Assembly: GCA_030123625.1 (NCBI GenBank)
Contig: CP126121.1
Span: 4,504,179 to 4,568,178 of the forward strand
DNA length: 64,000 nucleotides
Direction: 5' to 3'
Origin: Nitrospira sp.
GTDB taxonomy: Bacteria; Nitrospirota; Nitrospiria; Nitrospirales; Nitrospiraceae
Part shown: piece after piece, positions 601 to 42,830 of the stretch
Layout: each line of letters starts with the position of its first letter
How positions within the stretch are numbered: position 1 is the stretch's first letter
Made by a program: the position numbers and the translations under genes
Notes under the pieces: model-generated
Database searches by the model: none
What the model was told of the DNA's origin: nothing
The model's input: only the letters and a program-made list of their open reading frames with translations

Positions 601-1506
601 ATGCTTCTCTCTTCCTTGATTCGATTCGGTACTTCAACATGGACCTATGAAGGCTGGCAAGGCCAGATCTATCAGCGCACGTACGCCAAGACGACCTTTG
701 CGCGGGAATGTTTAGGCGAATATTGCCAATACCGGTATAACGGCGAACCGCTCTTTCGCACCGTCGGAAACGATTCCACGTTCTATCGTCCACCAACTAC
801 AAGCCAACTTCGTCACTACCTGGATCAAATCCCCGAAGGCTTCGAGATGTGCTTCAAGGTTTGGGAGGAGATCACGATTTCCAGGTTTGCCACACAGGCT
901 CGCTATGGCCTCAAGGCCGGGCAACCCAATCCTCGCTTTTTGGATCCAAAGTTGTTTATTGACCTCGTACTGGCACCCTACCAGGAAGCGAAATTTGAAC
1001 CACATATGGGTCCTCTGCTTTTCGAATTCCAACAACACGGGCTGTCCGCAAGCGATTTTTGCGCCAGACTGGATCGTTTCTTCGGCCAGTTGCCTCGGAA
1101 CCTTCGTTATGCCGTAGAGATCAGAAATGGGGGACTGTTGGGCTCAGATTATCGAAAGGTCCTAGAGAACCATGCTGTGGCGCATGTCTATAACCACTGG
1201 TCCTACATGCCGCCGTTGGCGCAGCAACATCGGCGGATGCAAGAGCGCTTCACCGCTCCGTTCACCGTGATCCGACTGCTTACGCCGCTCAACATGCCGT
1301 ACGAAGTCGCGAAAACGCGAGCCGCGCCTTATAACAAGATCGTGAGAGTGTTGCCGCAGATGCGGAAAGAAACTATAACCCTCATCAAGCAGGCCGTTGG
1401 CGAGAATCGTCAGGCCTATGTGTTGGTGAACAATCGCTCGGAGGGGAATGCACCGCTGACGGTGCAGGCACTCGCAAGTTCCCTACGCCATGAAGAAGAA
1501 CGGTGA
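601..1506 (+). CDS. DUF72 (YecE-like) family protein
   Basis: Protein of 301 residues, full length for the DUF72 family of TIM-barrel-like proteins of unknown reaction. It has the N-terminal family motif in the form RFGTSTWTYEGWQG (about residues 8-21), a central segment RYAVEIRNGG matching the family E-F-R strand, and the C-terminal YVLVNNRSEGNAPLTVQAL that matches the conserved NN..G.AP.N segment. The ATG at 601 follows a spacer without an obvious ribosome site. It ends 11 bases before the purN stop on the other strand, so the two genes converge. Family membership is clear; the function is not known. Confidence 0.85.
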   Translation: MLLSSLIRFGTSTWTYEGWQGQIYQRTYAKTTFARECLGEYCQYRYNGEPLFRTVGNDSTFYRPPTTSQLRHYLDQIPEGFEMCFKVWEEITISRFATQARYGLKAGQPNPRFLDPKLFIDLVLAPYQEAKFEPHMGPLLFEFQQHGLSASDFCARLDRFFGQLPRNLRYAVEIRNGGLLGSDYRKVLENHAVAHVYNHWSYMPPLAQQHRRMQERFTAPFTVIRLLTPLNMPYEVAKTRAAPYNKIVRVLPQMRKETITLIKQAVGENRQAYVLVNNRSEGNAPLTVQALASSLRHEEER

Positions 1507-1517
1507 TGTGAGATCCA

Positions 1518-2192
1518 TTATGTCGGACTGATGATCGCCTCGTCGCTCGGCCTCGCATCGTCAATCAATACCCGCCGGCCGTCGATGCGCAGTCGCCCCT
1601 CGGCAAAAAGCTGCACGGCGCGGGGATAGATCGTGTGTTCTTGCACGAGAATTCTCCCGGCGAGGGTTTCGGGTGTGTCGTCGTCTAAGATCGGCACAGC
1701 GGCTTGGATGATGATCGGTCCTTCGTCCACGCCTTCCGTCACGAAATGCACGGTACAGCCCGCCAGCTTGCACCCCCAATCGATGGCCTTCTTCTGTACA
1801 TCCAATCCCGGAAATGACGGCAACAACGAAGGATGAATATTCATCATGCGATTGGCGTAGGCATTGACCAATACCTCCGTGACGATTTTCATGTACCCGG
1901 CGAGCAAGACAAGTTCGGCGCCATGCTGCTGAAGGATGTCCAAAAGTGACCGATCGTATGCTTCACGACTGTCCGGCCGTCCGGCATAGGCCTTCGGATC
2001 GACGAACAGATCCTTGAGCCCGTGTTTCCGAGCCCGTTCCAGCGCGACCGCATCCTTCTTATTGCTGATGACAGCCACAATTTGAGCCTGCACCTGCCCC
2101 GCTTCGATTGCATCGATGATGGCTTGTAAGTTGGAGCCTCGTCCGGATGCCAGGACCGCCACGCGCAATGGAGTCGTTCGGCTAACCGACAT
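1518..2192 (-). CDS. purN: Phosphoribosylglycinamide formyltransferase PurN
   Basis: PurN transfers a formyl group from 10-formyltetrahydrofolate to GAR in purine synthesis. Visible signatures are [18 protein letters not shown] near the N-terminus (phosphate binding), the catalytic stretch [14 protein letters not shown] with its His, and [17 protein letters not shown] with the conserved Asp. The longest frame starts at 2210, but ATG 2192 lies six bases after GGAGG, which is embedded in the end of purM, so 224 residues is preferred. It overlaps purM by 11 bases, so the two are translationally coupled. Confidence 0.95.
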
Positions 2193-3219
2193 ACTCGACC
2201 TCCGGTTCATCCCCGGTGGAAGAAACGATTTCCCCGATCTGCCAACTTCGATCTCCCAGCGCTGTGGCTCGTGCCAGCACTCCGGATGCTGATTCAGGCG
2301 GTACCACGAGAATCAACCCAATGCCCATATTGAACACTCGGTACATTTCTTCACGATCGACCCGTCCTAAACGACCCATCACGTCGAAGATCGGCGGCAC
2401 CGACCAGGCTGCGCGATTAATCCTCGCCCGTACGCCCTTAGGGAACACGCGTGGCAAATTCTCCGTAATGCCTCCTCCAGTAATATGTGCGATACCGTTG
2501 ATCGGGCAGTGCTCGACAAGCGCCAAAATCTGCTTCGCGTAAATTCTGGTGGGTGTCAGGAGAATCTCGCCGATGGTTCCATCAAGCTCCGGTAGGCGGC
2601 TGGTAACGGTCAACTTGGCTTGTTCAAACAGCACTCGCCGGGCCAAGGAGTAGCCGTTACTATGGAGGCCTGAAGAAGCCAAGCCGATGACCGCATCCCC
2701 GGACATAATGTTTCGACCATCGATGATCTTCGGGCGATCGACGGCGCCGACGGCAAAACCGGCCAGGTCATATTCTCCATCAGGATAGAATGACGGCATC
2801 TCGGCGGTTTCACCCCCGATCAGCGCACATCCGGCTTGGCGGCAACCTTCGGCGATGCCGGCGACCACTTCCTGAGCCTTCGATACGGATAACTTCCCGG
2901 TTGCAAAGTAATCCAAAAAAAACAGCGGCTCCGCACCGCTCACCGCAATATCATTGACACACATCGCCACCAAATCGATTCCGACGGTGTCGTGCTTATC
3001 CATCATGAAAGCGATCTTCAGTTTGGTCCCCACCCCGTCGGTTCCGGAGACGAGCACGGGTTCTTTGTATTTGCCGGCTTGGAGGCCGAAGAGGCCGCCG
3101 AAGCCTCCTAAGTCGGTCAGAACTTCTGGGCGAAACGTCGATCGAACAAGAGGCTTGATGCGATCGACAAGCTCATCGCCGGCATCGATATCGACTCCGG
3201 CTTCGCGGTAGGTGGTCAT
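2182..3219 (-). CDS. purM: Phosphoribosylformylglycinamidine cyclo-ligase PurM
   Basis: PurM (AIR synthetase) closes the imidazole ring of the purine precursor using ATP. The 345 residues match the usual length. The sequence carries the glycine-rich loop (GGFGGLFG), [14 protein letters not shown], the conserved [20 protein letters not shown] block and the [13 protein letters not shown] segment typical of the family. It is first in a two-gene unit with purN, which begins inside its last codons. A hexamer-repeat hairpin lies just upstream at 3239-3310. Confidence 0.96.
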
Positions 3220-3238
3220 AGAGGAAATGTCTCGAATA

Positions 3239-3310
3239 GGTTAAGGTCGAGATTAAGGTTGAGCGAGAGCACTTCTGCGAGGTGTCTTCGGTCTAAACTA
3301 GACCTTAGCC
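3239..3310. repeat. Hexamer-repeat hairpin, copy 1
   Basis: GGTTAAGGTCGAG (3239-3251) can pair with CTAGACCTTAGCC (3298-3310) with two mismatches. Both arms consist of degenerate hexamers (GGTTAA, GGTCGA, GATTAA, GGTTGA; on the other strand GGCTGA, GGCTAA, GGTCTA). The same units recur at 19172-19234 and in part at 49634-49651. Here it sits between the divergent genes purM and the response regulator. Confidence 0.7.
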
Positions 3311-3394
3311 TCAGCCTTTCTTCGGAGGGCGCATCTTAACGGAGGGTCCGACGGAGGTCAATGCACGTCATCCATCTTCTGTTCCGCTTTTTTC

Positions 3395-28721: not shown

Positions 28722-29795
28722 TTACGACTGCGGTATTTTGAAAACCTGCTGGTGCCTCGGATGTACAAACACGACGTCGCCTTCGCGAAGAATAAGCTCT
28801 CGATACCGCTCCTTGGTCAGTTCGACCTCGATGGTCTTGGAGTCTTGGGCCATCAATTCGACTCGCACTCGCGACCCGGCGGTGAGAACATATTGCACAG
28901 TGGCCTCAAACTGCTCGGGATTTGTCCGGAATCGATTGAGTTCTAAGTCATGAGGACGAACGAACGTGACTTCGTGTTCATCCATCGCGTCTGCCGATAC
29001 AATAGGATCTACCTCCGGCAACGGCGGTATGTCCGCGAAGGTCCGGTCCTGTACCGCACGTCCATGAAACACATTGACGTCGCCAAGAAATTGATACACG
29101 AACGGGGACGCAGGATGTTCATAGACTTCTTCCGGCGTACCGACCTGCTCAATATTTCCCTGATGCATCACCACCACACAATCAGCCACTTCTAACGCCT
29201 CTTCCTGGTCATGGGTGACGAGAATGCCGGTAATGTGCAACTCGTCATGGAGCCGCCGCAGCCAGCGGCGGAGCTCTTTGCGGACTTTTGCGTCCAATGC
29301 CCCAAAAGGCTCATCCAACAATAGAAGCTTCGGTTCCACCGCCAACGCTCTGGCCAGCGCCACCCGCTGTCGCTGCCCCCCCGACAGCTGGCTGGGATAG
29401 CGATCAGCCATCGCCTGCAACTGCACCAGCCTGAGCAGTTCATGAACTTTCTCCTGTATGCACACGGCAGAAGGGCGTTGTGCTCGGGGCAGCACGTTCA
29501 GTCCGAACGCCACATTATCCGCCACGGTCATATGGCGGAACAGTGCGTAATGTTGAAAGACGAATCCCACGCGGCGTTCGGTGATTCGCCGATCCGTCAC
29601 CTCCGTGCCATGTAGAAAGATGCGCCCCTGGTCTGGCCGTTCCAATCCGGCGAGAATTCTCAGCAACGTCGTCTTGCCGCACCCCGACGGGCCGAGGAGC
29701 GCAACGAGTTCCCCCGACTCGACCTGGAGATTGACATCGTTCAATACCGTGAACGTTCCGAACCGTTTGGTGACATGTTCAACGTGAATGCTCAT
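28722..29795 (-). CDS. cysA: Sulfate/thiosulfate ABC transporter ATPase CysA
   Basis: ATPase of 357 residues energising sulfate import. Walker A GPSGCGKT (35-42), signature [15 protein letters not shown], Walker [13 protein letters not shown] and the switch His in [10 protein letters not shown] are all present. The C-terminal regulatory part contains the [12 protein letters not shown] segment typical of CysA. It is the last gene of the leftward sulfur operon, 13 bases after cysW. Confidence 0.95.
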
Positions 29796-29808: not shown

Positions 29809-30708
29809 TTATTTGCCCTGACCCACTTGCCGCTGGCTCCTGAGCTGAATAGCCGAGGCGGTTTTCCGTTCGATCAGCGTCTTCGCCGAGAGCGTCACGA
29901 TCGCCAGCAAGGTCAGGAGCGAGGCCACGGCGAATGCCGACACGGCGTTGTACTCGTTGTAGAGAATTTCCACATGCAGCGGCAGCGTATTCGTCAGTCC
30001 GCGGATATGGCCGGAGACGACCGACACCGCACCGAACTCTCCCATCGCACGCGCATTGCACAGGATCACTCCATAGAGGAGGCTCCATTTGATATTCGGC
30101 AGCGTCACACGCACGAACATCTGCCAGCCCGAGGCTCCGAGTGTGATAGCCGCTTCCTCCTCCTCCCGTCCTTGCGATTGCATCAGGGGAATGAGTTCAC
30201 GGGCGACAAACGGAACAGTGACAAAGATCGTCGCGAGGAGGATGCCGGGCAATGCAAAAATAATCTTGATGTCATGTTCCGCCAGCCATGGGCCCAGCCA
30301 GCCTTGAGCTCCGAACAGCAGCACGTAGATCAATCCCGAGATCACCGGAGAGACGGCCAACGGCATATCGATCAGAGTAATAAGCGCCTGTTTGCCCACG
30401 AACTCGAACTTGGCGATGGCCCAAGCTGCCGCCACTCCAAACACGGCATTCAGCGGCACAGCCACCGCCGCAACGAGGAGGGTCAAACGAATAGCTGCGA
30501 GGGCATCTTCATTGAGAAACGAATCGATGTAACCGGATAATCCGTGTTTCAACGCCTCGGTAAAGATGGCGACAAGAGGAATGAACAAAAAGAGCGTGAG
30601 GTACAACAAAGCGGCGGAAAGAAGCAATCGGCGGACAAGCGCGCTTTCAGTGGTGAGCGATTCTTTCCACTGTACATCCTTATCGGCGATAATTGTGACG
30701 GAGTCCAT
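29809..30708 (-). CDS. cysW: Sulfate ABC transporter permease CysW
   Basis: Membrane permease of 299 residues with six hydrophobic segments. The coupling loop that contacts CysA is visible as [29 protein letters not shown], split here as [14 protein letters not shown] and [35 protein letters not shown] follows, a CysW hallmark. It lies six bases after cysT and forms the heterodimeric channel with it. Confidence 0.94.
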
Positions 30709-30714
30709 ACGTTC

Positions 30715-31551
30715 CTATTGATGCATGTGGCGGGTACTGCTCCACCACTGAAGGAGGTTGATCGCCAAGGCCAGGACGAACGATACCACCAGCATCACAA
30801 CGCCCAGCGCCGTGGCTCCCGAATAATCGTACTGCTCCAACTTCGTCATGATCAGGAGTGGGGTAATTTCCGATTTCAGCGGCATATTACCCGCGATGAA
30901 AATGACCGACCCGTATTCCCCGACGGCACGCGCGAATGCCATCGCGATCCCGGTCAGAAGGGCTGGCCAGAGTTCTGGGACGATGACCGCTCGAAACGTT
31001 TGCCATCGATTAGCCCCCAGCGTGGTGGCGGCCTCTTCAACTTCTTTATCCAAATCCTGCAACACGGGCTGCACGGTACGGACGACGAACGGCAACCCGA
31101 TGAAGGTCAATGCGATAAGGACTCCCAACGGGGTGAAGGCCACCTTGATACCCAACGGCTCCAGATATCGCCCGATCCACCCGTTCGGCGCATAGATTGC
31201 CGTCAACGTAATACCGGCGACCGCAGTCGGCAGGGCAAACGGAAGATCGACGAGCGCATCAATAAGAGAACGGCCCGAGAAACGGTACCGCACCAATACC
31301 CACGCAATGATCGACCCAAACACCCCATTGACGAGCGCTCCGACCAACGAAGCACCGAACGTCAGCTGGTAGGAGGCCATCGCCCGTGGATTGGTGACGA
31401 TGTCCCAGAATTGTTCCCACGATAAGGTACTGGTCTTCACAAAGAGCCCGCTGAGAGGAATCAGCACGATGAGACTGAAATAAAAGAGAGCAAACCCTAA
31501 AGTCAGGCCGAATCCGGGAAGAACGCTGGGCTGTTTCAGCAAAAGGTGCAT
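30715..31551 (-). CDS. cysT: Sulfate ABC transporter permease CysT
   Basis: Membrane permease of 278 residues (also called CysU). The N-terminus is [20 protein letters not shown], followed by six hydrophobic segments. The coupling loop reads [18 protein letters not shown] and is followed by [19 protein letters not shown], the CysT form of the motif. It lies 89 bases after sbp. Confidence 0.94.
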
Positions 31552-31640: not shown

Positions 31641-32675
31641 TCATCGAGGGGTCTTACTGAGCTGCAAATAGACCTGATCGAAGGTCCCCCCATCGGCGAA
31701 ATGAATCTTATTCGCCTTCTGCCAATCCCCGAAAAACTCCTGCAATGTGAACAGTTCCAACTTTGGGAACTTGGTGTGTCGCGTGGCAACCGACGAAAGG
31801 CGAGGGCGATAATAATGCCTCGCGGCAATTTCCTGACCTTCTTCTGAATACAGATACTCGAGGTACGCTTGAGCGACGGTCCGAGTGCCTCTCTTGTCGA
31901 CAACCTTATCGACGAGGCTCACGGTGGGTTCCGCCAGGATACTGATGGGCGGTACCACAATATCGAACTTGTCTTTTCCGAGATCTTCCCCGCCCAACAA
32001 AATTTCATTTTCCCAATTGATCAGGACATCACCGATGCCACGCTCCACGAACGTCGTCGTCGCACCGCGTGCTCCCGAATCGAGAACCGGCACGTTCTTG
32101 AACAGCTGAGTGATAAACTCCTTGGCTTTGGCGTCGCCGCCGCCTGATTGCTTCAGTGCGTACCCCCACGCTGCCAAATAATTCCAACGCGCGACTCCCG
32201 ACGTCTTGGGATTCGGAGTGATGACCGAAACTCCCGGTTTGATCAAATCGCCCCAATCCGTGATGTTTTTTGGATTGCCTTTGCGGACCAGGAATGCAAT
32301 CGTCGATGTGTAGGGCGCGCTGTTATGGGGAAACCGTGTTTGCCAGGCTGCCGGCAGAAGCGACGTTTTTTCGGAGATCGCATCGATATCATACGCCAAG
32401 GCCAATGTCACCACATCCGCTTCCAAGCCGTCGATGACTGCGCGAGCCTGCTTGCTCGACCCTCCATGAGACTGCTTAATCGTCACCTGTTGACCGGTCT
32501 TCGCCAACCAATGTCTGGCAAATGCCGCGTTGAACTCCTGATACAGTTCCCGCGTCGGATCATATGACACATTGAGAATGACCACCGGCTCAGCGGCATG
32601 GGTCGACGAAACCCACCAAAGGAAGCCGGTCAACAATACCGTTATAGATACGGAAGCCACCTGTTTTATTCTCAC
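31641..32675 (-). CDS. sbp: Periplasmic sulfate-binding protein
   Basis: Exported protein of 344 residues that delivers sulfate to CysTWA. Family blocks are [37 protein letters not shown] (sulfate-contact Ser residues) and the [11 protein letters not shown] segment. The chosen start is GTG 32675, behind AAGGAG with six-base spacing, because it opens directly into the signal peptide. ATG 32705 is an alternative; it overlaps the stop of the upstream gene (ATGA) and adds ten charged residues. Confidence 0.92.
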
Positions 32676-32701
32676 AACATGCTCCTTTCCCTTCTCTCTG
32701 C

Positions 32702-33499
32702 TCATGACCGATAGACATCATTGGTATCCACCAACGCGGTTGTTGGCCCGAGGGTCCATGCTTCGTCGGCTTCTTGAGGAATTCCCGAATTCGGCGTTCG
32801 CTCCCGAGGATGGTCCAGCGCGGCCTGCGCCAACAGGCTCGTCGAGCTCAACAGCGGAAGCGCCGCCTGTTCCTCGGAGAGAAGCAGAGGGAGTTCAGTG
32901 CAACCGAGAATCACCACCTCCACTCCGTCCGCCGCCATCTCTGCAATCACGTTCTGCAGAAACCGCCGAGATTGGGCTGTGAACAGTCCCGCGATAAGTT
33001 CGGCTCTGATGATGTGTTGAATCCGAACGCGGTCATCCTTCCCCGGAATCACCGCATTGATGCCCGACCGCTTCAACCTCAGAGAATAGATCGATCCCTC
33101 CATAACGACCTGTGTTCCGAGAATTCCGACTCGCCGCCATCCGCGCCGCGCAATTTCTTTCACAACCGGCTCGGCGATATGCAGCCATGGAACCGATGAC
33201 TCAACGAGATCGAAGGCTTTGTGTAGCGTATTATTCGGGCAAACAATGACGTCAGCGCCCGCTCGTACCAGCTTGGCTGCCGAATGAGACATTAAAGCGG
33301 CGACACTCGCCCAGTCATCCAGGTCGATCGCATCCAGATACAAGCGAAGTGGGAGCGCGTGCAACGTGATTTCGGGATGCATGTTGTGCCCTATGACTTC
33401 ATCTGCCTTTCGACACAAGGTTCGGTAGCACAGCGCCGCGCCTTCGGACGTGCCGGCCACGATACCGATGTGGAAAGCTCTCAAGTCATCTGTCGTCAT
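32702..33499 (-). CDS. Aspartate/glutamate racemase family protein
   Basis: Protein of 265 residues of the Asp/Glu/hydantoin racemase superfamily. Both catalytic Cys regions are visible: [14 protein letters not shown] (first Cys) and [13 protein letters not shown] (second Cys), so a two-base racemase mechanism is possible. The frame is open to 33598, but ATG 33499 follows GGAGG with four-base spacing. It overlaps DUF2325 upstream by 14 bases and the longer sbp frame downstream by four. Its place in a sulfate operon is unusual; the substrate is unknown. Confidence 0.85.
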
Positions 33500-33803
33500 A
33501 CGTCCTCCGAAACCGAAATGGATACAGCGAGCCTGGTACAGTCTGAGCGCCTGCATCAATCCGGCGGCCTCGTTTCCGGTAATAGACGGGAAGACCACGT
33601 CGTGAGGCTTCTCTCCCTACCCTTTTCATCAATGCATGATTCACCTGGTCCAATACCACTATGATTGCCTCGGTGGCTTTGGGAATGGACCGTACCAAAT
33701 CACGAGGCTTGCGCCCCGTCCAATGTTCCACATGTATTCGAGCTTTGGCAGCCCGCCGCCGGAATATTTCCGCCGAGTCACCGCCCACAACTAGAATGGC
33801 CAT
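33486..33803 (-). CDS. DUF2325 domain protein
   Basis: Protein of 105 residues. The domain core is MAILVVGGDSAEIFRRRAAK, VEHWTGRK and IIVVLDQVNHALMKRV, followed by SRRGLPVYYRKRGRR, which matches the DUF2325 layout (GGxxx, dGxR, vvxxDxvsH, kr.gkP). The function is unknown, though the fold resembles nucleotide- or sugar-binding Rossmann types. It overlaps the racemase-like gene by 14 bases, so translation is coupled. Confidence 0.8.
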   Translation of the reverse strand: MAILVVGGDSAEIFRRRAAKARIHVEHWTGRKPRDLVRSIPKATEAIIVVLDQVNHALMKRVGREASRRGLPVYYRKRGRRIDAGAQTVPGSLYPFRFRRTYDDR

Positions 33804-33865: not shown

Positions 33866-34564
33866 TCACGACCTCGGCGCTTTTGTCAGTGCCTCCAGCG
33901 CGTCACGATACCGAATCTGGAGTTCCTCTCGTTGGTTGGTCGTGAATAGCTTCCAACCGGAACGTACTCTGTGTAGGTACTCTTCCGGCTCAAACGTCGC
34001 ATGAAAGGAGGGAGCCTCTTCCGGCACATTGGGCATCTCACGGTCGTACTTGCTGATGTCCGGCCCGGGACCATGCCGATCATGGACCTCGCTCAAGTCG
34101 AGATAAAGCAGATTGCCCCTAATGGACAGCCACCCGGTCGTGGTTTCCTCCTGTCCATAGTCAGTCACGTGACTCAGGTGAAAAGACACTCGCTGGTCAG
34201 CTGAGGCGATTTCCAAGGCTTTTGAAAGTACCGGCGCAAGCTCGGCCACCTCCTCATTACGAAATGCCCTCGTCCTCTCAGGCTCGCCGGAATAGAGCCG
34301 GTGAAAAATATTGCGGTGTTTCCAAACACGAACCCCTCGTAGCAACGAACCGATCTCGCTCGGCGTCAATTGTGTCGGATGGTCGTTTGAGCTTGAATCA
34401 GGATCTGTCTCAAGATACACATGGTTTAATCCTGACTTATAAATCGTGGTTTGCGGTCCAACCGGAGTACTGGCGCAACCGATCGTCAAACCAAGGCCTA
34501 AAACAAGCACTGCACGGACAGACCATGCGACCGACTGATTGTCGGTGATATTTCGTCGGTTCAT
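33866..34564 (-). CDS. Lipoprotein of unknown function
   Basis: Protein of 232 residues. The signal peptide has a lipobox (LTIGC, Cys near residue 30), so the mature protein is lipid-anchored. The mature part is hydrophilic and has no recognised domain. It contains GSLLRGVRVWKHRNIFHRLY and GWLSIRGNLLYLDLSEVHDRHG. Its start overlaps the stop of the upstream ModA-type gene by four bases, and DUF2325 follows after 62 bases, placing it in the sulfur operon. Confidence 0.75.
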   Translation of the reverse strand: MNRRNITDNQSVAWSVRAVLVLGLGLTIGCASTPVGPQTTIYKSGLNHVYLETDPDSSSNDHPTQLTPSEIGSLLRGVRVWKHRNIFHRLYSGEPERTRAFRNEEVAELAPVLSKALEIASADQRVSFHLSHVTDYGQEETTTGWLSIRGNLLYLDLSEVHDRHGPGPDISKYDREMPNVPEEAPSFHATFEPEEYLHRVRSGWKLFTTNQREELQIRYRDALEALTKAPRS

Positions 34565-35385
34565 GGCTGGACCTCCCGCCGCTGCGTGAAGCTGACATCG
34601 GAGCTTGCTCGCTCAAATCCATATTTCTTCAGTTCTGTTTGAACCGGGGCGGACATCAAGAAGGAAATCAATTCTCGGGCCCCCGCAATGTTTTGCGCGG
34701 TCCATGGAGCCGCAATTCCGTAGGCCATCGGCCTATGGTTGTCGGCAGGAGCCGTATCGACGATGCGTACACGTTTTGCCGTGAGCGCATCGGTTTGATA
34801 GACAATTCCGAGTTCCGCTTCCCCCTTTGAAACGAGATCAAGTACCGCCCGGGAATGTTCCCCATAGATGAACTGCGATCTCAGTCGAGGTTCGAGTTTT
34901 TCCTGTCTCAGGAATTGAATCGTATCTTTTCCGACCGCGGAAGCCGCGGGATCCCCGATGGCAATGCGCCTGACCGGAGTGGTCTCAAGATCCTGAATCG
35001 AGCCGACCGATGCAGGGAAAGCGGCATTGGTGATCAAGACGAGGGTGGTGCGAGCGTAGATGCGTTTCGTGTCTTGAAGGATGAGCCCATTCTTTTCCAG
35101 TTGGTCGATATCCTCGAATTGTGCAGGAAGCAACACATCCACCGGCGCACCTTCCTCGATTTGTTTGACGAGTGTTTTAGGTTGGGCATAGATGACCCGC
35201 ACGGAAATATCGGGGTTTTGCGCTTCAAAGAGCGGCAATATTTTTCGGAACACGTCTTTTAGGCTGCTGGCCGCCGCGACAGTGAGGACTTCGGATTGGG
35301 CATGGGCGGAAGGAACCGCCGATCCTGTGAAAACGACGATACCGGCTAAAACAATCATGCGGCTAACAGTTTGCGTGAATATCAT
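34561..35385 (-). CDS. ModA-type periplasmic oxyanion-binding protein (sulfur operon copy)
   Basis: Exported protein of 274 residues with a signal peptide to about AHA (residue 29). The mature part begins LTVAAASSLKDVFRKILPLFE, the ModA family start, and has GAPVDVLLPAQFEDIDQLEKNG and LVSKGEAELGIVYQTDA. The sequence matches the molybdate-binding family, but the gene sits after a porin inside a sulfate operon with no ModBC next to it, so the ligand may be another oxyanion. It resembles the product of 40613-41374 only at family level. Confidence 0.85.
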   Translation of the reverse strand: MIFTQTVSRMIVLAGIVVFTGSAVPSAHAQSEVLTVAAASSLKDVFRKILPLFEAQNPDISVRVIYAQPKTLVKQIEEGAPVDVLLPAQFEDIDQLEKNGLILQDTKRIYARTTLVLITNAAFPASVGSIQDLETTPVRRIAIGDPAASAVGKDTIQFLRQEKLEPRLRSQFIYGEHSRAVLDLVSKGEAELGIVYQTDALTAKRVRIVDTAPADNHRPMAYGIAAPWTAQNIAGARELISFLMSAPVQTELKKYGFERASSDVSFTQRREVQP

Positions 35386-35421
35386 GGGAACCTCCTTGTG
35401 TCTCTACCGTTCCATGTACGG

Positions 35422-37059
35422 TTAGAAGAAAAACTGGTACTGCACGTTGAACCGGTTTTCGACGAGGTCCAGACCGAACCCCGGCAAGTTCTCGAAGGGG
35501 AACCGATCCGGGGCCCGCCCGCCACTTCCCATTGTGATATTCGAGTAATCGATAATGAGTCGATTATTGTAGGTGCCATCGAAGCTGTAGCTGACCGCAA
35601 CGCCTAGTTCCTTGGTCAAGTCCTGTTTTTGTCTGATCGAAGGATCAAGGATGCCGTATCGCACCGCAACTTCGAGTTTGCGTGGAATCACGTACTTTCC
35701 CACTTGCACATACCAACCCCACGCATCACCCAGCGACACTGGGGGACCGACGGCGAGCGGACTCGTCGGGATGGTTCCCAGATCGAACGGCTTGGTTTGG
35801 CTATCCCCGTTCCGTACAATTTGGTCCCTAAAAAATCCTTCGACTTGAATCGACCAACCGCGGTATTTCGCGATGAAATCCAGTTCGTAGGTGTGAAAGT
35901 CATAGATACCGCCTCCGAGCAACCGGCCGTTATAGGCCTTGACCACTCGCTGGCGGAATGCCCGATCGACGATGTCGGATCGAATCGAGCTCAGATAGTT
36001 TTGAGCCGGATCGTAGGCATAGCCGAACGCGACGGCTGCCTGCGGAGTACGTGAATTGAGAATATCTCCCTGACCGTACCCAGGATTACCCGCGATTTTA
36101 TAGAGCAATCTGATCGTGTACATCATTTCGCCCGTCAGGAAACGGGTATCATAGTTGTATGTTCTTGTGGTTCCGGCATTTGGACCTCCCCCGCCGGTGG
36201 GAGGCAACACATTCTGACTGACTGCCGTACCCTCTCTCGTCAGATTTGCGCCGACTCCTCCCCAAATGCCGAAGGCATAGTTGAACCTGTATTTCTCCTC
36301 ATCGCTCAATATGGTGACTCCCACGTCGCGGCTACCCTGCAGGTTGGATGCAAACACACTTTGCACAACCATGGGGTCTGCAAAAGAAGTAGTGGCATTG
36401 GAACTGATCAGGGCACGATTGAACCAGACCCGCTGTTGGCCCGCCTGCACGGTCGCCCAGGGAATGTGCCACGAAGCGATGTAGGCATCGAGCAGGTTGG
36501 CTCGTCCGCTGCCGCCCTCTTGGTCCCATTCCGTCTGATTCAACGCCACGGAAACGTTGTAACGAAAATCAGGGTCGAAGGCATGGCCCATGAATTGGAG
36601 TTGAACACGGGGGGCTGAAAATGTACTCGAATCGCTCTGATGCCGGAACGCGCGATATTCTACTTGGCCACCGAGAATCTCAGGATTCCTGGAATCTCCA
36701 ATCGTTCCCCAGGCTTCGTTGTACCGGCTGTAGCTATACCGGACTTGCGTAAGGAGACGAAGTTTAAGCAGAAACTTTTCCCCGACACGGAAGTTCAATC
36801 CATTGTTCACATCGATGGTGAAGTTGGGCTTCGTGAGCCGCTCCTTGGTTTCGATGACTTTCAGGCCTTTGCTGTACTCTTCTTCGGTGATCAATCCTTT
36901 CAGGTAGAGATACTTCAAGCCGGGGTCTTCCCCTGAATAGAATTCCCACTTGCCATCCTTCTTAACGAATTGTCCCTCCTCTACAGCCCAAGCAGACGAA
37001 ATGTATGTAAGGGAGATCATCATGATCGCAAACAAGACACTTGAACCGGAAATTCTCAT
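35422..37059 (-). CDS. OprP/OprO-type outer membrane porin
   Basis: Outer membrane beta-barrel of 545 residues. A signal peptide ends at about residue 23 (SSAWA). The mature N-terminus (EEGQFVKKDGKWEFYSGEDPG, then a KGLITEEEY segment) matches phosphate/anion-selective porins. Alternating hydrophobic strands follow, and the chain ends in FNVQYQFFF with the C-terminal Phe needed for assembly. The frame opens at 37074, but ATG 37059 follows GGAGGAATGCGAC. It lies 36 bases before the ModA-type gene and presumably admits the same anion. Confidence 0.88.
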   Translation of the reverse strand: MRISGSSVLFAIMMISLTYISSAWAVEEGQFVKKDGKWEFYSGEDPGLKYLYLKGLITEEEYSKGLKVIETKERLTKPNFTIDVNNGLNFRVGEKFLLKLRLLTQVRYSYSRYNEAWGTIGDSRNPEILGGQVEYRAFRHQSDSSTFSAPRVQLQFMGHAFDPDFRYNVSVALNQTEWDQEGGSGRANLLDAYIASWHIPWATVQAGQQRVWFNRALISSNATTSFADPMVVQSVFASNLQGSRDVGVTILSDEEKYRFNYAFGIWGGVGANLTREGTAVSQNVLPPTGGGGPNAGTTRTYNYDTRFLTGEMMYTIRLLYKIAGNPGYGQGDILNSRTPQAAVAFGYAYDPAQNYLSSIRSDIVDRAFRQRVVKAYNGRLLGGGIYDFHTYELDFIAKYRGWSIQVEGFFRDQIVRNGDSQTKPFDLGTIPTSPLAVGPPVSLGDAWGWYVQVGKYVIPRKLEVAVRYGILDPSIRQKQDLTKELGVAVSYSFDGTYNNRLIIDYSNITMGSGGRAPDRFPFENLPGFGLDLVENRFNVQYQFFF

Positions 37060-37211
37060 GTCGCATTCCTCCATGACATGGGAACTTCCGGTAGCCCGGT
37101 CAGTTCTTAGTTGAACAGGTTAAGAGAACTCTCGCACGTCCAGTCGTCTGGACGACTCAGGTCATCATGTGAATACTCCCGTCACAATACTTCTGAGCCG
37201 CTGTCGCCGAC

Positions 37212-37391
37212 TCATCGAATTGGACGGGAAAGTGTGCCGTCAAAGCGCGTCTTTTCTTTTCGTTCAATCTGCACCACTTTGGAGTCGTGAACGATGATCT
37301 CGACGGACCCAAATCGAATCCCTTTCAGCGCGAGCAAGATGGCTTGCTCGACAATTCGATCTAAGGAGGGATTTGCTATGCCTTGATTCAT
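37212..37391 (-). CDS. yezD: YezD family protein (DUF2292), 59 aa
   Basis: Short protein of 59 residues. It reads MNQGIANPSLDRIVEQAILL, then ALKGIRFGSVEIIVHDSKVV and QIERKEKTRFDGT. This is the DUF2292 pattern (helix, LKGIRFGSVEI strand, hDgxVvQIErxEKxR). In Bacillus and other bacteria YezD genes sit with sulfur assimilation genes, and the context fits here. ATG 37391 follows AGAAGGG with eight-base spacing. It is 152 bases ahead of the porin and is the likely first gene of the operon. Its role is not known. Confidence 0.85.
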   Translation of the reverse strand: MNQGIANPSLDRIVEQAILLALKGIRFGSVEIIVHDSKVVQIERKEKTRFDGTLSRPIR

Positions 37392-37442
37392 CTAGACATC
37401 CCTTCTGACTCCTACTTTGCAATGGTTCAACTAATCTTTACA

Positions 37443-37457
37443 TTACCGATCGTAATT
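37443..37457. promoter_or_regulatory. Palindrome in the AT-rich region ahead of yezD
   Basis: ATTACCGATCGTAAT is a near-palindrome (ATTAC...GTAAT) in a strongly AT-rich stretch (about 37435-37535) upstream of the sulfur operon. It could be an operator, but there is no second copy to support it. The AT-rich stretch is the obvious place for the operon promoter, although no clear -35/-10 pair stands out. Confidence 0.3.
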
Positions 37458-37558
37458 AATAATTCATTTTATACTAAAACTTAAGTTTATTTGTCAACAA
37501 AATAAAATTGGAGTTTACATAACCATTTTTAATTAGGGCTGGCTGGTGAGCTGGTGAG

Positions 37559-37771
37559 ATGGAAGCCGACGAGAGTTACTTTGGTGGCGTACGCCAAGGC
37601 CGCAGGGGGCCACGGCGCAACGGGGAAAGCGTCCATCTTTGGCTTATTCAAGCGAGGCGGTGTATACGGCCATTATTCCGGACGCCATCTGCGGCGCTTC
37701 AATGGCGGTGACCATAAAGCGCTGTTACAGCAGCTCAGAGTCTGGTATCACTTCAGAATCAACATGCCTTA
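37559..37771 (+). pseudogene. IS1595-family transposase remnant
   Basis: Three frames in turn give pieces of an IS1595-type transposase. The first reads MEADESYFGGVRQGRRG, with the DESYFGG catalytic motif. After a shift it gives GATGKASIFGLFKRGG, then VYTAIIPDA in a third frame and finally WYHFRIN. At least two frameshifts and a central deletion have occurred. Only about 70 codons of a gene that normally has some 220 remain. No terminal repeats are visible. Confidence 0.6.
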
Positions 37772-37901
37772 ACTATCCCCCGGCCCCATTTTATGAGCAC
37801 TATTTTGTAGTACATTGATAAATGTTATAAATTATAAATTACACATAACATTTTAAATTGATACACCGCCTCCGCGCGGACACAGGAGCCAATACAAACA
37901 C

Positions 37902-38485
37902 GTGGTTCAGTTTTCCAATCAGTTGAAATCGGCCCGTACGAAGCAAGGTTTCTCGCAAGGCGAACTCGCGAATTGGGCGGCATGATGCGGCAGGCCACCT
38001 CTGCCTTTGAATTCAACCTGTATTTGCCGACTACCGCCATTGCGCTCTGATTGGCTCCCGTCCTCGCGTGCCGCGTCGAGGATTTCCATCTTATCCCGGT
38101 AGAGACGTCATTGAAGGCACCTTGATCGGCTGGCTCCCTCGCGGCGATGCGCACCCGTCTCGATTCGCGTCAAGGTGTCGACCGTGGAAAGCGAACGATC
38201 GTGCGGCCGGTCGCCGATCTAGGGGAGCAGCTGTGCTTCGCCGTGCCGGCCGTGGCTCTGGGGCAAGACTCCTGCTCGATCAACGCTTGCGAGCCGCTGG
38301 AGTCGAGTCAACCCAGATTCATGGATACGACGGATTGTGTTTTCATATTTTGGAGTGGCACGAGCCATCCAGGGCTGGCAGCTGACGTGGGCCTGGGAAT
38401 CTGCTCGGCGGCGCAGCTATTTGACCTCGACTCCGTCCCCTGCAAGCCGCTCGCTACGATCTGGTCGTCCCGAAGCCGTATCTGA
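37902..38485 (+). pseudogene. Decayed XRE-type regulator with C-terminal binding domain
   Basis: The frame from GTG 37902 reads VVQFSNQLKSARTKQGFSQG, a typical XRE helix-turn-helix start, and stops after 26 codons. Continuing in other frames gives MMRQATSAFEFNLYLPTT, a second HTH half, then fragments such as CRVEDF, GTLIGWLPRGDA, VRPVADLGEQLCFAVPA, and near the 3' end DLVVPKPYLK. This is the layout of regulators with an HTH joined to a periplasmic-binding-protein-like domain. There are several frameshifts. It may have regulated the neighbouring molybdate genes; that is inference. Confidence 0.6.
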
Positions 38486-38599
38486 AATCTACCCGACATT
38501 ACCCCGCTTCTCCGCCCTCAAGAAAAACAGGGAGTATCAGGAACAGGCAGCCATCGACGATATCGTCAGAGCTATCAATGATTATGGGTTTTGCTATAA
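38486..38599 (+). pseudogene. 3' end of an IS630-family transposase
   Basis: This stretch matches the last part of the IS630 copy at 45600-46436: both contain the ALKK..REYQE segment, then a conserved Ile-Asp run, and both end with ATCAATGATTATGGGTTT followed by TATAA. The sequence stops matching exactly where the decayed porin/modA copy begins (38600), so 38599 is probably the right end of the insertion sequence. The rest of the element is missing. Confidence 0.7.
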
Positions 38600-38695
38600 G
38601 GCTCCTATTTCGACAGTCCCGCCATCCGGCCCAAATGCCGACCGGCGGGAACAAAAAGTGATTACTTCTATTTTCAAGTGCGAGTCCGAATTTAG
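38600..38695 (+). pseudogene. Decayed 3' end of an alginate-export-type porin gene
   Basis: GGCTCCTATTTCGACAG at 38600 is identical to 40502-40518 in the intact porin gene, and the similarity runs on through CAAATGCCGACCGGCGG to the stop codon. Substitutions and small indels break the frame. It represents the final 30 or so codons of a porin, cut off at its left side by the IS630 end. Confidence 0.8.
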
Positions 38696-38707
38696 AAAGG
38701 ATGGGTC

Positions 38708-39020
38708 ATGATACAAAGGCTTCTTCCATGATGGCCGTTATCATGGCGCATAGTTGTGGCGCCGGCTTTCGCCGGGCAAGTCTTCGTGGCCATCGTTGCC
38801 GATTTTGTCCCGCCGTTCCGCGAAGTGCGCTGGACTTCGAAAAGACAACCGGCATCTTGCTATCGCCTCCTCTGGAAATCTCTATTTTATAATCACAACG
38901 GCGGCCCCTTTGACGTATTATTTACGCCGAACGTCGAGCGTCCGAAATTGTTAGAAGAGGAAGGATCAGGAACCACATGTGCTGCCGGACATCTGGCTCT
39001 CTGTAGTTCCACTCCTGATC
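38708..39020 (+). pseudogene. Decayed modA copy
   Basis: From ATGATACAAAGGCTTCTT the sequence follows the intact modA (40613 onward) base by base with many substitutions and indels: GATTTTGTCCCGCCGTTCCG against GAATTTTGTTCCACCGTTTC, and TCTGGAAATCTCTATTT against TCCGGGAATTTCTATTC. Matching continues to about 39020, covering roughly the first 110 codons. The 3' part of the gene is absent and the intact porin gene begins 40 bases later. It is frameshifted and cannot give a working protein. Confidence 0.85.
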
Positions 39021-39061
39021 ACATAAGAAGAAGAACGCACGCTCAGCTCTAAGGAGTTTCG

Positions 39062-40600
39062 ATGTCGAAGAGAAATTGCGTCCTCTTGTGCGCTGCGCTC
39101 TTCCTTGCAGGAGCCGGTTCAGTGAATGCCGTCGAGTATGGGGAGGTGGTACAGAAGGACGGGAAATGGATGTTCAGGAATACGGAAGACCCAGTCTTTA
39201 AGCTCATGCGAGATGCTGGATGGATTACAAATGAGCGATATTTCCAAGTTTCGCAACGCACCGGACAGAACTGGATCGAGCCGGCCGATGCACTCCTCAA
39301 TCGACGACGGCAGATCGAATGGAATCGATACCTCAAAACCGGGCTGCACCTTCCTGACTGGATCGACCTGGGGCTCGAGCAACGCACACGATTCGAGTCG
39401 TATGACCATCCCTGGCGGTCGAATCAGGCAATCGGAAACGGGCGGACGGATGCACAAATTCTTATGCGGTCGAGGCTCCGTTTCGGGCTTGGCGGAAATG
39501 GTCCGTTAAGATTCTTCTTTGAAGGTCAGGACGCACGTGCCTTCCTAAATGGATCACCAGGCGCCTTCCGTGATAACACGACGGTCAATGAATTCGATAT
39601 TTTACAAGTATTCGGATCATTGACCTTAAAGAATGTCATGGGAACCGGGTTGCGAACCGATTTCCATTTCGGACGCATGACTATGGATGTCGGCAACCGA
39701 CGGCTCATTGGGCGAAATGATTTCCGAAACACCACCAATTCATTCGATGGGTTCGATTGGCAGATCAGTCAGGACAAGACCTGGCGGCTCAGGGCATTCA
39801 TTCTGGAGCCGGTTATCCGAGACGAGGAGAGACTCGATACACAGAGCAACAAATCGATCTTTTGGGGGACCTATTTTGAGAGTAAGCATTTCCCCTGGTT
39901 TCAGATAGACGCCTACTACCTGGGACTGAATGATCGGCATGTGGCCAATATGGCGAACCATCGTACCTATTCCACGTTCGGAGGCCGCCTCTTTAAAGAT
40001 CCCAGGCCGGGTAAACTGGAGTATGAGATTGAGACCACCTGGCAGATCGGGACCCGGGGCATGATCGACCACTTCGCCTATTTGCAGCATTTGGGTCTCG
40101 GATATACGTTCAACCTCCGCTGGACGCCAAGACTAATCTTCCAATACGACTATGCCAGCGGCGATCGGCAGCCCGGCGACAGTCAGGATGGGAGCTTCGA
40201 CACCTTGTTTGGATCCAGAAATTTCGAATACACGCGGACTAGCATTTGGGGTCCATTTTCCAGGACGAACCTTATCTCACCTGGTTGGCGAGTGATCGTC
40301 ACACCCACACCAGGCTTGACACTTGAAGTCAAACATCGAGTCTGGTATCTCGCGCAGAGCAAAGATTTCTTCAGCAGTTCCGGCCTCCGAGATCCCACAG
40401 GGAATGCCGGCACTTCGCTCGGGCATGACGTAGAACTTCGTGCGCTATGGGTAATCAACGCAAATTTGGACTTTGAAGCAGGATATGACCATTGGTTCAA
40501 GGGCTCCTATTTCGACAGCCCCGTCATTCTTGCTCAAATGCCGACCGGCGGAAACAAAGACAGTGATTATTTTTATGCTTCAGTGCGAGTCAGGATCTAG
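39062..40600 (+). CDS. Alginate-export-family outer membrane porin
   Basis: Beta-barrel protein of 512 residues with a signal peptide to about residue 23 (SVNA). The mature N-terminus has VVQKDGKWMFRNTEDP, similar in style to the porin at 35422-37059, but the barrel (WIDLGLEQRTRFESYDHPW, SRLRFGLGGNGPLRFFFEGQDAR, FHFGRMTMDVGNRRLIGRNDF) is of the alginate export (AlgE-like) family and ends in FYASVRVRI. ATG follows CTAAGGAGTTTCG. It is 12 bases before modA and probably provides the outer-membrane route for the same anion. Confidence 0.88.
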   Translation: MSKRNCVLLCAALFLAGAGSVNAVEYGEVVQKDGKWMFRNTEDPVFKLMRDAGWITNERYFQVSQRTGQNWIEPADALLNRRRQIEWNRYLKTGLHLPDWIDLGLEQRTRFESYDHPWRSNQAIGNGRTDAQILMRSRLRFGLGGNGPLRFFFEGQDARAFLNGSPGAFRDNTTVNEFDILQVFGSLTLKNVMGTGLRTDFHFGRMTMDVGNRRLIGRNDFRNTTNSFDGFDWQISQDKTWRLRAFILEPVIRDEERLDTQSNKSIFWGTYFESKHFPWFQIDAYYLGLNDRHVANMANHRTYSTFGGRLFKDPRPGKLEYEIETTWQIGTRGMIDHFAYLQHLGLGYTFNLRWTPRLIFQYDYASGDRQPGDSQDGSFDTLFGSRNFEYTRTSIWGPFSRTNLISPGWRVIVTPTPGLTLEVKHRVWYLAQSKDFFSSSGLRDPTGNAGTSLGHDVELRALWVINANLDFEAGYDHWFKGSYFDSPVILAQMPTGGNKDSDYFYASVRVRI

Positions 40601-40612
40601 AAAGGGTCAGCT

Positions 40613-41374
40613 ATGATACTGAGGCTTCTTATATCGTGTGTGTTTGTCCTTGTGACACTGGCGGTGACCCCGGTCTTTGCCGAGCCAGTGTTGGTGGCGG
40701 TGGCGGCGAATTTTGTTCCACCGTTTCGGGAAGTATCGATCGAGTTCGAAAAATCGACAGGACATCACGTACAGGTTACTGCGGGTTCCTCCGGGAATTT
40801 CTATTCACAAATCAAAAACGGCGCCCCGTTCGATGTGTTCTTCTCTGCCGATAGTGAACGACCCAGGAAATTGGAAGAGGAAGGGTTTGGGATCAAGAAC
40901 TCCCGCTTTACCTATGCCATTGGACGTCTCGTGCTCTGGAGTCCAAATGCCGATCTGGTCAAGGGAGAAGAGACGTTATACTCTAAAAATTACACACGCT
41001 TGGCCATTACGAACCCGAAAAACGCGCCTTATGGCCTTGCGGCGATGCAGGCCATGCAAAAACTGAAAATATGGGACAAGCTGCAGCCCCAGCACATCAT
41101 CATTATGGGGGAGAATATCGGCCAGACCATGGGATTTGTTGAGTCCGGTAAGGCCGAGTTGGGTTTCGTGGCCTTGTCTCAAATCATGGATCCGAAAATC
41201 CAAGGGAAGGGCAGTCGCTGGGATGTCCCGAACAATCTTCACGAACCGATCAAACAAGACGTGATCTTGCTGACGAAGGGAAAGGATAACGCGGGAGCCA
41301 AAGCCCTCTTGGAGTTCATGGGCGGCCCGCAAGCCAGGGCGATCATCGAACGCTATGGCTATGAGCTGAAGTAG
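40613..41374 (+). CDS. modA: Molybdate-binding protein ModA
   Basis: Exported protein of 253 residues. The signal peptide ends near residue 23. The mature protein has VAVAANFVPPFREVSIEFEKSTGH, split as VAVAANFVPPFREV and SIEFEKSTGH, then GSSGNFYSQIKNGAPFDVFFSAD and the later ENIGQTMGFVESGKAELGFVALSQI, all typical of ModA. It forms a unit with the porin upstream. modC is intact downstream, but the permease gene between them is truncated. The stop TAG is directly followed by CAGGATA, an end unit of the repeat family at 4194 and 24108. Confidence 0.92.
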   Translation: MILRLLISCVFVLVTLAVTPVFAEPVLVAVAANFVPPFREVSIEFEKSTGHHVQVTAGSSGNFYSQIKNGAPFDVFFSADSERPRKLEEEGFGIKNSRFTYAIGRLVLWSPNADLVKGEETLYSKNYTRLAITNPKNAPYGLAAMQAMQKLKIWDKLQPQHIIIMGENIGQTMGFVESGKAELGFVALSQIMDPKIQGKGSRWDVPNNLHEPIKQDVILLTKGKDNAGAKALLEFMGGPQARAIIERYGYELK

Positions 41375-41538: not shown

Positions 41539-41763
41539 GTGCTGGGGTTCGCACATACGATGGGTGAATTTGGGGTGGTGCTCATGGTCGGCGGCTCGAT
41601 TCCGGGACACACGCGTGTCTTGTCCACGACCATCTTTGAACATGTCGAGGCGATGGAATATGCGCAGGCGCATGCGATCTCGGCTTTCATGCTGCTCGCT
41701 TCGTTTCTGGTGTTGTTGACCGTGTATATCGTGAATCGCCGATTTCCCATCCATGCGTCATGA
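41539..41763 (+). pseudogene. modB: Truncated modB (molybdate permease), last third only
   Basis: The frame gives 74 residues matching the C-terminal part of ModB: GFAHTMGEFGVVLMVGGSIPGHTRVLSTTIF, shown here as GFAHTMGEFGVVLMVGG and SIPGHTRVLSTTIF, then two hydrophobic stretches. ModB normally has about 220 residues; roughly the first 150, with most membrane helices and the start of the ModC-coupling loop, are missing. The preceding 160 bases hold repeat-like scraps (GACTGTTGAAGAAGTCGGC near 41435) and no permease sequence. The stop overlaps the modC start (ATGA), the normal operon junction. Confidence 0.8.
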
Positions 41764-42830
41764 GCCGGTTGCGGGCCCGCTTTGCGGTGCGATTTCCGGC
41801 GTTTCATCTGAACGTTGAGATGGAGGTGCCCCTGTCGGGCATTACCGCCATCTTCGGACCATCGGGCTCGGGCAAGACGACGCTCTTGAGATGCCTGGCC
41901 GGCCTTGAGCGGGCTCCCCATGGCTTTCTCCAGGTCGGCGAGGAGGTCTGGCAGGACGAAGCGGTCGGTTTGTGCCGACCGCTCTCGCACCGTCCAATCG
42001 GCTATGTGTTCCATGAACCGCGCTTGTTTCCCCATTACAATGTCCGCGCGAATCTTCTGTACGGCTACAAACGCATTCCTGCGGAAGCACGCCGCCTGGC
42101 GCTGGAGCAGGTCGTGGAGATCTTAGGCATCGGCCATTTGCTTGCACGCCGCATTCACCACCTCTCCGGCGGGGAGCAACAGCGGGTCGCGATCGGGCGG
42201 GCGCTGCTGACCAGTCCCCAATTGCTCTTGCTGGACGAACCGCTCGCCTCGCTCGATGTGCACCGCAAACAAGAACTCCTTCCGTTCATCCGTCGCCTGC
42301 ATGAGGAGTTACACATTCCCGTGATGTACGTCAGCCATGCGGTCGCCGAAATTCTTCACCTGGCCGACCGTGTCGTGCTTCTACAAGAAGGCCAGGTCGT
42401 GGGCGTCGGTACGCTCAATGAAATGTTCACGTCTCTCACATTCCGCGGACAGTTCGGCGCCCATCGCATCGGCGCCATCTTGGATACTCATGTGACGGCG
42501 CATGACGCGGAATACGGCCTGACCCGACTGGAATTCAACGGCCACTCCCTCTTTGTGCCGCTTCAAGCTGTCGCGGTCGGACAGGGCCTGCGCGTCCACA
42601 TGCTTTCCAGCGACGTCAGTCTCGTCGGAGGGAACACCATGGCGCCGACCAGTGTGTTGAATGTTCTGGAGGCCACAATTAGAGAAATCCGGGAAGTGGA
42701 TCAGACGTCAGTAGACGTATTGTTGGATATCGGCGCGCCTCTCGTGGCTAGCATCACGCGCAAATCGCTGAGCATGCTGGGATTGACGCCGGGGCGCGAG
42801 TCTTCGCGCATATCAAAGCCCTCGCCCTGA
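41760..42830 (+). CDS. modC: Molybdate ABC transporter ATPase ModC
   Basis: ATPase of 356 residues. Walker A GPSGSGKT (33-40), signature LSGGEQQRVAIGRAL (about 137-151), Walker B LLLLDEPLASLD and the switch His in VSHAVAEILHLADR are intact. The C-terminal part (about 290-356) is the molybdate-binding MOP/TOBE domain. The ATG overlaps the stop of the modB remnant. With modB truncated, ModC must either pair with another permease or be idle. Confidence 0.93.
   Translation: MSRLRARFAVRFPAFHLNVEMEVPLSGITAIFGPSGSGKTTLLRCLAGLERAPHGFLQVGEEVWQDEAVGLCRPLSHRPIGYVFHEPRLFPHYNVRANLLYGYKRIPAEARRLALEQVVEILGIGHLLARRIHHLSGGEQQRVAIGRALLTSPQLLLLDEPLASLDVHRKQELLPFIRRLHEELHIPVMYVSHAVAEILHLADRVVLLQEGQVVGVGTLNEMFTSLTFRGQFGAHRIGAILDTHVTAHDAEYGLTRLEFNGHSLFVPLQAVAVGQGLRVHMLSSDVSLVGGNTMAPTSVLNVLEATIREIREVDQTSVDVLLDIGAPLVASITRKSLSMLGLTPGRESSRISKPSP

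Follow-up and report, generated by a model that had tools for sequence, protein, structure and literature searches.

A single-contig genome of Nitrospira sp. (CP126121.1, 4.69 Mb) contains, within a stretch of 64,000 nucleotides that we refer to as the window, two divergent importer operons that each begin their transport genes with an outer-membrane porin. The leftward operon, which starts at position 37059 and is of the sulfate type, encodes in order porin A, the ModA-type binding protein ModA1, a lipoprotein, an Asp/Glu-racemase-family protein, CysP, CysT, CysW and an ATPase in the CysA position. The rightward operon, which is of the molybdate type, consists of a decayed regulator gene and a remnant that joins a porin end to a modA start, followed by genes for porin B, ModA2, a truncated ModB and ModC. 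We consider it probable that these are two oxyanion-import operons, each headed by a dedicated outer-membrane channel, and that such entry layers have been swapped between importers. Passage of sulfate and molybdate across the outer membrane is normally attributed to general porins, and the key enzyme of a nitrite oxidiser is a molybdoenzyme. The arrangement suggests that Nitrospira builds private entry gates for scarce oxyanions and, if this is true, an operon-encoded porin for each importer makes selective outer-membrane uptake of sulfate and molybdate directly testable.

An earlier note on this DNA had described three copies of one porin plus ModA module and had proposed porin-binding protein pairing as a dedicated route for oxyanions. 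The positions it gave for both porin genes and both modA genes are correct, as are the ModA-like nature of the two binding proteins and the alginate-export type of the second porin (Table 1). Instead of three modules of one kind, however, there is one porin A-ModA1 pair, one intact porin B-ModA2 pair and one remnant. The two associations are distinct because the ModA proteins are ~27% identical and the barrels are of different families, which agrees with the suggestion that the association was built twice, but the two barrels do share an N-terminal module of ~49 residues. Conservation of the gene order likewise favors a dedicated route, but the unit is the importer operon and not the bare pair, since the right-hand ModA is the importer's own substrate-binding protein and the left-hand pair fronts an importer that has its own CysP. 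The truncated modB, modC, the cysPTW-cysA operon, the lipoprotein gene and a second intact molybdate operon were all absent from the earlier account.

The molybdate-type operon and its conservation

Families were assigned by comparing scores with Pfam gathering and NCBIfam curated cut-offs. ModA2 aligns well to the solved structures 7t4z, which we take to be ModA of P. aeruginosa, and 1atg. The window operon has no complete ModB, of which 74 C-terminal residues remain, and the sister genome G016 (L074) has the same truncated modB together with a porin B gene that is interrupted by a stop codon. Despite the truncation, purifying selection acts on porB and modA2, with ratios of nonsynonymous to synonymous substitution (dN/dS) of 0.09-0.15 and 0.15-0.19, respectively. 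An intact regulator-porin-modABC operon (L067) is present elsewhere on the same chromosome at 766-772 kb. In the mechanism that we propose, porin B would admit molybdate, and perhaps tungstate, to the periplasm, where ModA would capture it and pass it to ModBC. With modB truncated in the window, the porin B-ModA2 pair would therefore need the intact ModBC from 766-772 kb.

The model of porin B has 18 strands with a predicted local distance difference test score (pLDDT) of 65.7, which is medium confidence, and a predicted template modeling score (pTM) of 0.67 from a 17-row alignment. Its best PDB match is AlgE 4b61 (E 2.3e-14, template modeling scores 0.58/0.68). Among 17 homologues there are 14 invariant arginines versus 7.1 expected (p 0.005, uncorrected, with 11 residues tested), an excess compatible with an anion channel.

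The check proposed in the earlier note, a search of relatives for porin genes just upstream of modA, was run on 44 related loci retrieved with porin B. Directly downstream of the AlgE-like porin there is a modA gene in 39 of these loci, with three contig ends and two loci without it (L158 and L162). In the same survey modB follows further downstream in 32 of the 34 loci that have room for it, and a regulator with helix-turn-helix and PBP_like domains is located upstream of the porin in 34 of 37. A search of 198 genomes of the phylum gave a porin B match in 31 genomes and 30 loci, with some species repeating those of the 44-locus survey. ModA is the first recognised gene behind the porin in 22 of the 25 phylum loci (counting that of the window) with at least ~50% identity, while two of the remaining three have the order porin-modA-porin-modBC and one has no ModA in view. 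Orphan porin-ModA pairs that lack modBC occur beside a full operon in G012, G018 and G030. Additionally, one contig of G010 ends inside a window-like porin right after modC, and another opens with the remainder of such a porin followed by modA.

A rival explanation is that these porins are general or export channels, either AlgE-like polymer exporters or generic pores, that are merely co-regulated with importers. The nearest solved structure is indeed an alginate exporter, some homologues adjoin metal efflux or resistance genes, and polymer genes are possible near some loci given that the family scans covered a minority of neighbouring genes. However, in dozens of loci it is the porin gene that separates the regulator gene from modABC, and different porins hold the same place before one importer type, so that we regard this explanation as very unlikely.

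The sulfate-type operon and exchange of its entry genes

CysP, CysT and CysW all score above their family cut-offs, and CysA is assigned by position and similarity alone. Porin A falls just short of the gathering cut-off of Porin_O_P (PF07396), a PF07396 search of its own genome gave no match, and the protein has no NCBIfam match and no meaningful sequence match in PDB. The designation "OprP-type" in the earlier note is consequently weak for porin A itself, given its sub-threshold score and the empty own-genome search, although the paralogue porAx (L080) does pass the PF07396 cut-off at 35.9 bits. A reading of porin A pore chemistry from invariant residues was dropped, as the arginine excess is absent from its family. 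The nearest solved relatives of ModA1 are 4kd5 (E 4.7e-30) and 2h5y, and it is more distant from all solved ModA proteins than is ModA2. Its orthologues vary in one loop (YAQPKT and YGPSQT are among the variants) that presumably corresponds to the E. coli ModA loop holding a ligand serine. Prediction of a ligand from pocket residues was dropped, and we claim none for ModA1, because this serine loop differs among orthologues.

Porin A, ModA1 and the lipoprotein travel together. Among a relatives set of 59 genomes, ModA1 orthologues (at least 57% identity) occur in 14 and lipoprotein orthologues (at least 56%) occur in the same 14, with an 80-residue lipoprotein piece of 69% identity in one additional genome (G004). 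Porin A (at least 70%, in split pieces in G027) is present in 13 of the 14 ModA1 genomes; no porin A was found in the other (G026), where ModA1 starts at base 19 of a contig. ModA1 directly follows porin A in 15 of 15 rows compared, equal to 13 distinct loci as L124 duplicates L072 and L130 duplicates L069. We propose that porin A, the extra soluble ModA1 and the lipoprotein, at the outer membrane, would form an entry layer before the sulfate importer CysPTWA, in which porin A would admit the anion, ModA1 would catch it near the pore and CysP would feed the permease.

This entry layer does not belong to one importer. Further downstream of the porin A-ModA1 block there is a gene for either the sulfate protein CysP or an SsuA-family substrate-binding protein, the latter replacing CysP behind the trio in G022, G024, G025 and G029 (4 of 4 tested score above the TIGR01728 cut-off). 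At other loci a PF07396 porin, porS, heads a cysP or SsuA-family gene. It occurs in seven genomes of the genus, none of which is among the 14 trio genomes, a lack of overlap with a chance of ~0.017 among 35 genus genomes (hand calculation, phylogeny ignored). A rotated paralogous set with the order regulator-modAx-lipoprotein-porAx-modA heads the molybdate operon in six genomes of another Nitrospira clade (G014, G022, G024, G025, G029 and G032, the regulator of G025 being cut at a contig end). By pattern, modAx has a lipobox in four of the six, one of these a doubtful early match. Entry layers thus appear to have been exchanged, with a related trio placed before modABC in another clade and a PF07396 porin replacing porin A elsewhere. 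Lipoprotein-porAx pairs without any ModA were also seen (L211, L212 and L216), with the pair in L211 adjoining a 1433-residue protein that has a TPS secretion domain.

The lipoprotein family

The lipoprotein has no family match in Pfam or NCBIfam and could thus represent a new family of partner proteins. A lipobox is present in 27 of 28 window-type lipoproteins, a set that includes overlapping copies of the same locus, and none has Asp at +2. By the E. coli lipoprotein sorting rule, the lack of Asp at +2 points to an outer-membrane location. Association of this family with porins extends to PF07396-type porins that the porin A search matched more weakly, as a family lipoprotein lies within ~1.5 kb of 14 of 17 (L221-L224, L228-L235, L238 and L240), with one contig end and two loci that have none adjacent. 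Pst phosphate-import genes are alongside 10 of these 17 porins (families checked in L221, L222 and L224). The idea that the lipoprotein is exclusive to porins was rejected on the basis of its own-genome copies L218-L220. Separately, L221 encodes at 999-3320 a PstC-type protein of 773 residues with a WD40/beta-propeller-like stretch.

Range of the association

Outside of the phylum, a Thiotrichaceae contig (L162) has a porin of 34% identity followed by a TupA-like protein and preceded by a ModE-domain-like gene that is below its own family cut-off. A plasmid search returned 15 records with porin B homologues, of which six were inspected, and on two of these (Agarilytica and Methylosinus) modA (L196) or modABC (L200) is divergent from the porin. 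On the Sphingobium plasmids L197 and L199, alginate-export-family porins adjoin chrA and a ChrB-domain gene. The link between porin and oxyanion outside Nitrospirota is recurrent but not universal, because the plasmid neighbours are mixed.

Several observations weigh against dedicated oxyanion channels. Within the phylum, ModA is missing from the 1.5 kb around the five porin B homologues of lowest identity (36-44%), and no ModA was seen beside the third PF13372 porin of the Nitrospira genome itself. The TupA-like protein of L162 scores 234 bits versus a curated cut-off of 400, and four of the six inspected plasmid homologues are not beside an oxyanion substrate-binding protein, their neighbours being chromate genes in two cases, arsenic genes in one and RND efflux genes in one. 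The porin A family shows no arginine excess (six invariant versus 4.6 expected), and the porin A model failed at a pLDDT of 33.5 from a 7-row alignment, so that no claim about its fold rests on it. Lastly, no recognised porin adjoins any of the three other lipoprotein paralogues of the genome (L218-L220).

The shared N-terminal module

The module that porin A and porin B have in common covers ~49 residues after the signal peptide and joins barrels of different families. A porin B query reaches porin A (E 1.2e-5) through the N-terminus only, and the reverse search with porin A finds porin B orthologues at up to E 3.6e-10, with ~50% identity over ~50 residues. A profile of the module (A2) gave 52 matches in 31 of the 59 genomes. 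By coordinates, 44 of these are in genus porins of the porA, porB or porAx groups, seven are partial matches to homologues of porin A from another family, and one (G015:C100) was left unclassified. In the models of both porins the module is predicted, at low confidence, to be a hairpin and two helices. PF07396 porins that head cysP or ssuA do not have the module. Porin B proteins from a Nitrospira sub-clade and from other genera also lack it, yet there ModA is still adjacent. A requirement of the module for ModA pairing was accordingly rejected.

For the module taken by itself, chances are about even that it is only a lineage-specific leader, with a role in assembly, trimer formation or peptidoglycan contact and with no relation to binding proteins. 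Its dispensability for pairing speaks for such a leader. Against it are the concentration of profile matches on porA, porB and porAx porins and the fact that PF07396 porins leading cysP without an extra ModA are also without the module. A more speculative and rather unlikely extension is that in Nitrospira and its relatives modular outer-membrane entry complexes, composed of a porin and a lipoprotein and in some cases an extra ModA-type protein distinct from the substrate-binding protein of the importer, serve phosphate, sulfate, organosulfur and molybdate importers, with the module docking the binding protein on the periplasmic side so that free diffusion is avoided. Two unrelated barrels that carry one N-terminal module constitute a natural experiment.

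Remnant and mosaic origin of the right-hand operon

The earlier note had recognised a decayed piece at 38600-39020. This piece is real, but the decayed stretch starts at 37900 and derives from a whole operon. The segment from 37900 to 38852 matches the L067 operon in order, with the two ends of the regulator followed by the porin-modA junction, and we regard it as the remnant of a whole operon because the decayed regulator is included and the order is that of L067. The modA-like frame of the remnant runs on to ~39050 and is 42% identical to modA2 over 100 residues.

At the DNA level, the porin B gene of the window is 94% identical to the porin gene of a related contig (L119) and 74% identical to that of L067. 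Identity to L067 is 97% for the modB remnant and 98% for modC, while porB and modA alongside are 74-80% identical, and synonymous divergence (dS) from L067 is 0.12 for the modB remnant and 0.05 for modC versus 1.29 for porB and 0.86 for modA2. The locus is thus a mosaic, as the modB end and modC are nearly identical to L067 and the porin-ModA pair is far diverged. Judging from these divergences, the porin-ModA pair is apparently the older part, and the adjoining modB end and modC were acquired recently by copying or gene conversion.

These relics raise the alternative of duplication and decay only, in which a copied molybdate operon has left remains, the orphan pair has no role and ModA1 was stranded after loss of its permease. 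The decayed genes at 37900-39050, the truncated modB, the intact paralogous operon and the sister genome G016 with its stop-broken porin B all fit this alternative. It is weakened by the purifying selection on porB and modA2, by the joint retention of ModA1, porin A and the lipoprotein in 13 of 14 genomes and by the recurrence of porin-ModA pairs without modBC in three other genomes, and we consider it distinctly unlikely.

Comparison with known systems

ModABC systems with a ModE-like or PBP_like regulator resemble the right-hand operon in ModA and ModC, and its intact relatives also in ModB and the helix-turn-helix/PBP_like head. They differ in that the first transport gene of the Nitrospira operon encodes an AlgE-like outer-membrane porin and that modB of the window is truncated. 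Porin B resembles AlgE in its predicted 18-strand fold, of which AlgE is the top PDB match, but is 11-14% identical to it, is a proposed importer and is located in a molybdate operon, a context that points to molybdate. As with the phosphate porins OprP and OprO, PF07396 porins adjoin Pst genes in Nitrospirales, but porin A is below the PF07396 cut-off and is located at a sulfate operon.

Porins in importer operons have precedent in the FmdC, ExtI and feoAB porins. The FmdC gene is located in an ATP-binding cassette (ABC) operon, and we know of no extra substrate-binding protein or lipoprotein trio with FmdC. FmdC of Methylophilus is described as a porin for short-chain amides and urea and is thus likewise tied to uptake of one small-solute class, with a different substrate (PMC5877670). 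The same source describes ExtI, a PF07396-like porin of a Geobacter selenite/tellurite cluster, which shares the link to oxyanions but whose cluster consists of cytochromes and not an ABC importer (PMC5877670). Both porAx (25.3 bits) and porS (49.0 bits) are far under the cut-off of 150 of the ExtI model NF040900, and therefore neither is ExtI. The Geobacter feoAB operon contains a porin predicted to serve the importer, with ferrous iron as substrate and an OprB-type porin as the differences (PMC545781). In the open literature, with subscription papers and preprints outside of the search, we found no published porin pairing with molybdate or sulfate importers in Nitrospira and no published account of the lipoprotein partner or of an N-terminal module common to two barrels.

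Features of the window

Table 1. Positions, strands and assignment of features of the two operons.
Feature	Position	Strand	Basis
ATPase, CysA position of sulfate importer	28722..29795	-	42% identical to ModC over 223 residues; directly after cysW
CysW sulfate permease	29809..30708	-	TIGR02140, 403.7 bits (cut-off 329.1)
CysT sulfate permease	30715..31551	-	TIGR02139, 433.6 bits (cut-off 246.1)
CysP/Sbp, sulfate-binding protein of the importer itself	31641..32705	-	NF008022, 524.7 bits (cut-off 288)
Asp/Glu-racemase-family gene within sulfate operon	32702-33598	-	weak cysteate-racemase match, 102 bits (cut-off 190)
Lipoprotein, porin A partner	33866..34564	-	lipobox TIG-C, Ala at +2; no Pfam/NCBIfam match
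ModA1, extra ModA-type binding protein, no permease of its own nearby	34561..35385	-	TIGR01256, 136.7 bits (cut-off 62.5)
Porin A, distant Porin_O_P-like barrel with shared N-terminal module	35422..37059	-	PF07396, 19.7 bits (sub-threshold; cut-off 20.9)
Shared N-terminal module in porin A	36841..36987	-	profile A2, E 1.8e-24
Decayed regulator gene (HTH_3 + PBP_like), ~430 bp lost internally	37900..38509	+	matches both ends of the intact L067 regulator, at 88% and 83% DNA identity
Remnant, porin 3' end fused to modA 5' end	38600..38852	+	76% DNA identity to L067 8936-8677
Porin B, AlgE-like barrel (18 strands predicted) with shared N-terminal module	39062..40600	+	Alginate_exp PF13372, 193.8 bits (cut-off 25.2)
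Shared N-terminal module in porin B	39128..39274	+	profile A2, E 3.7e-29
ModA2	40613..41374	+	TIGR01256, 214.6 bits (cut-off 62.5); 7t4z E 8.8e-75
Truncated modB, last 74 codons	41539..41763	+	TIGR02141 positions 142-208 only
ModC ATPase	41760..42830	+	TIGR02142, 387.8 bits (cut-off 285)

Between the two operons, a reading frame at 37554-37780 contains, by eye, a MEADESYFGG-like stretch and presumably represents a fragment of an IS1595-type transposase.

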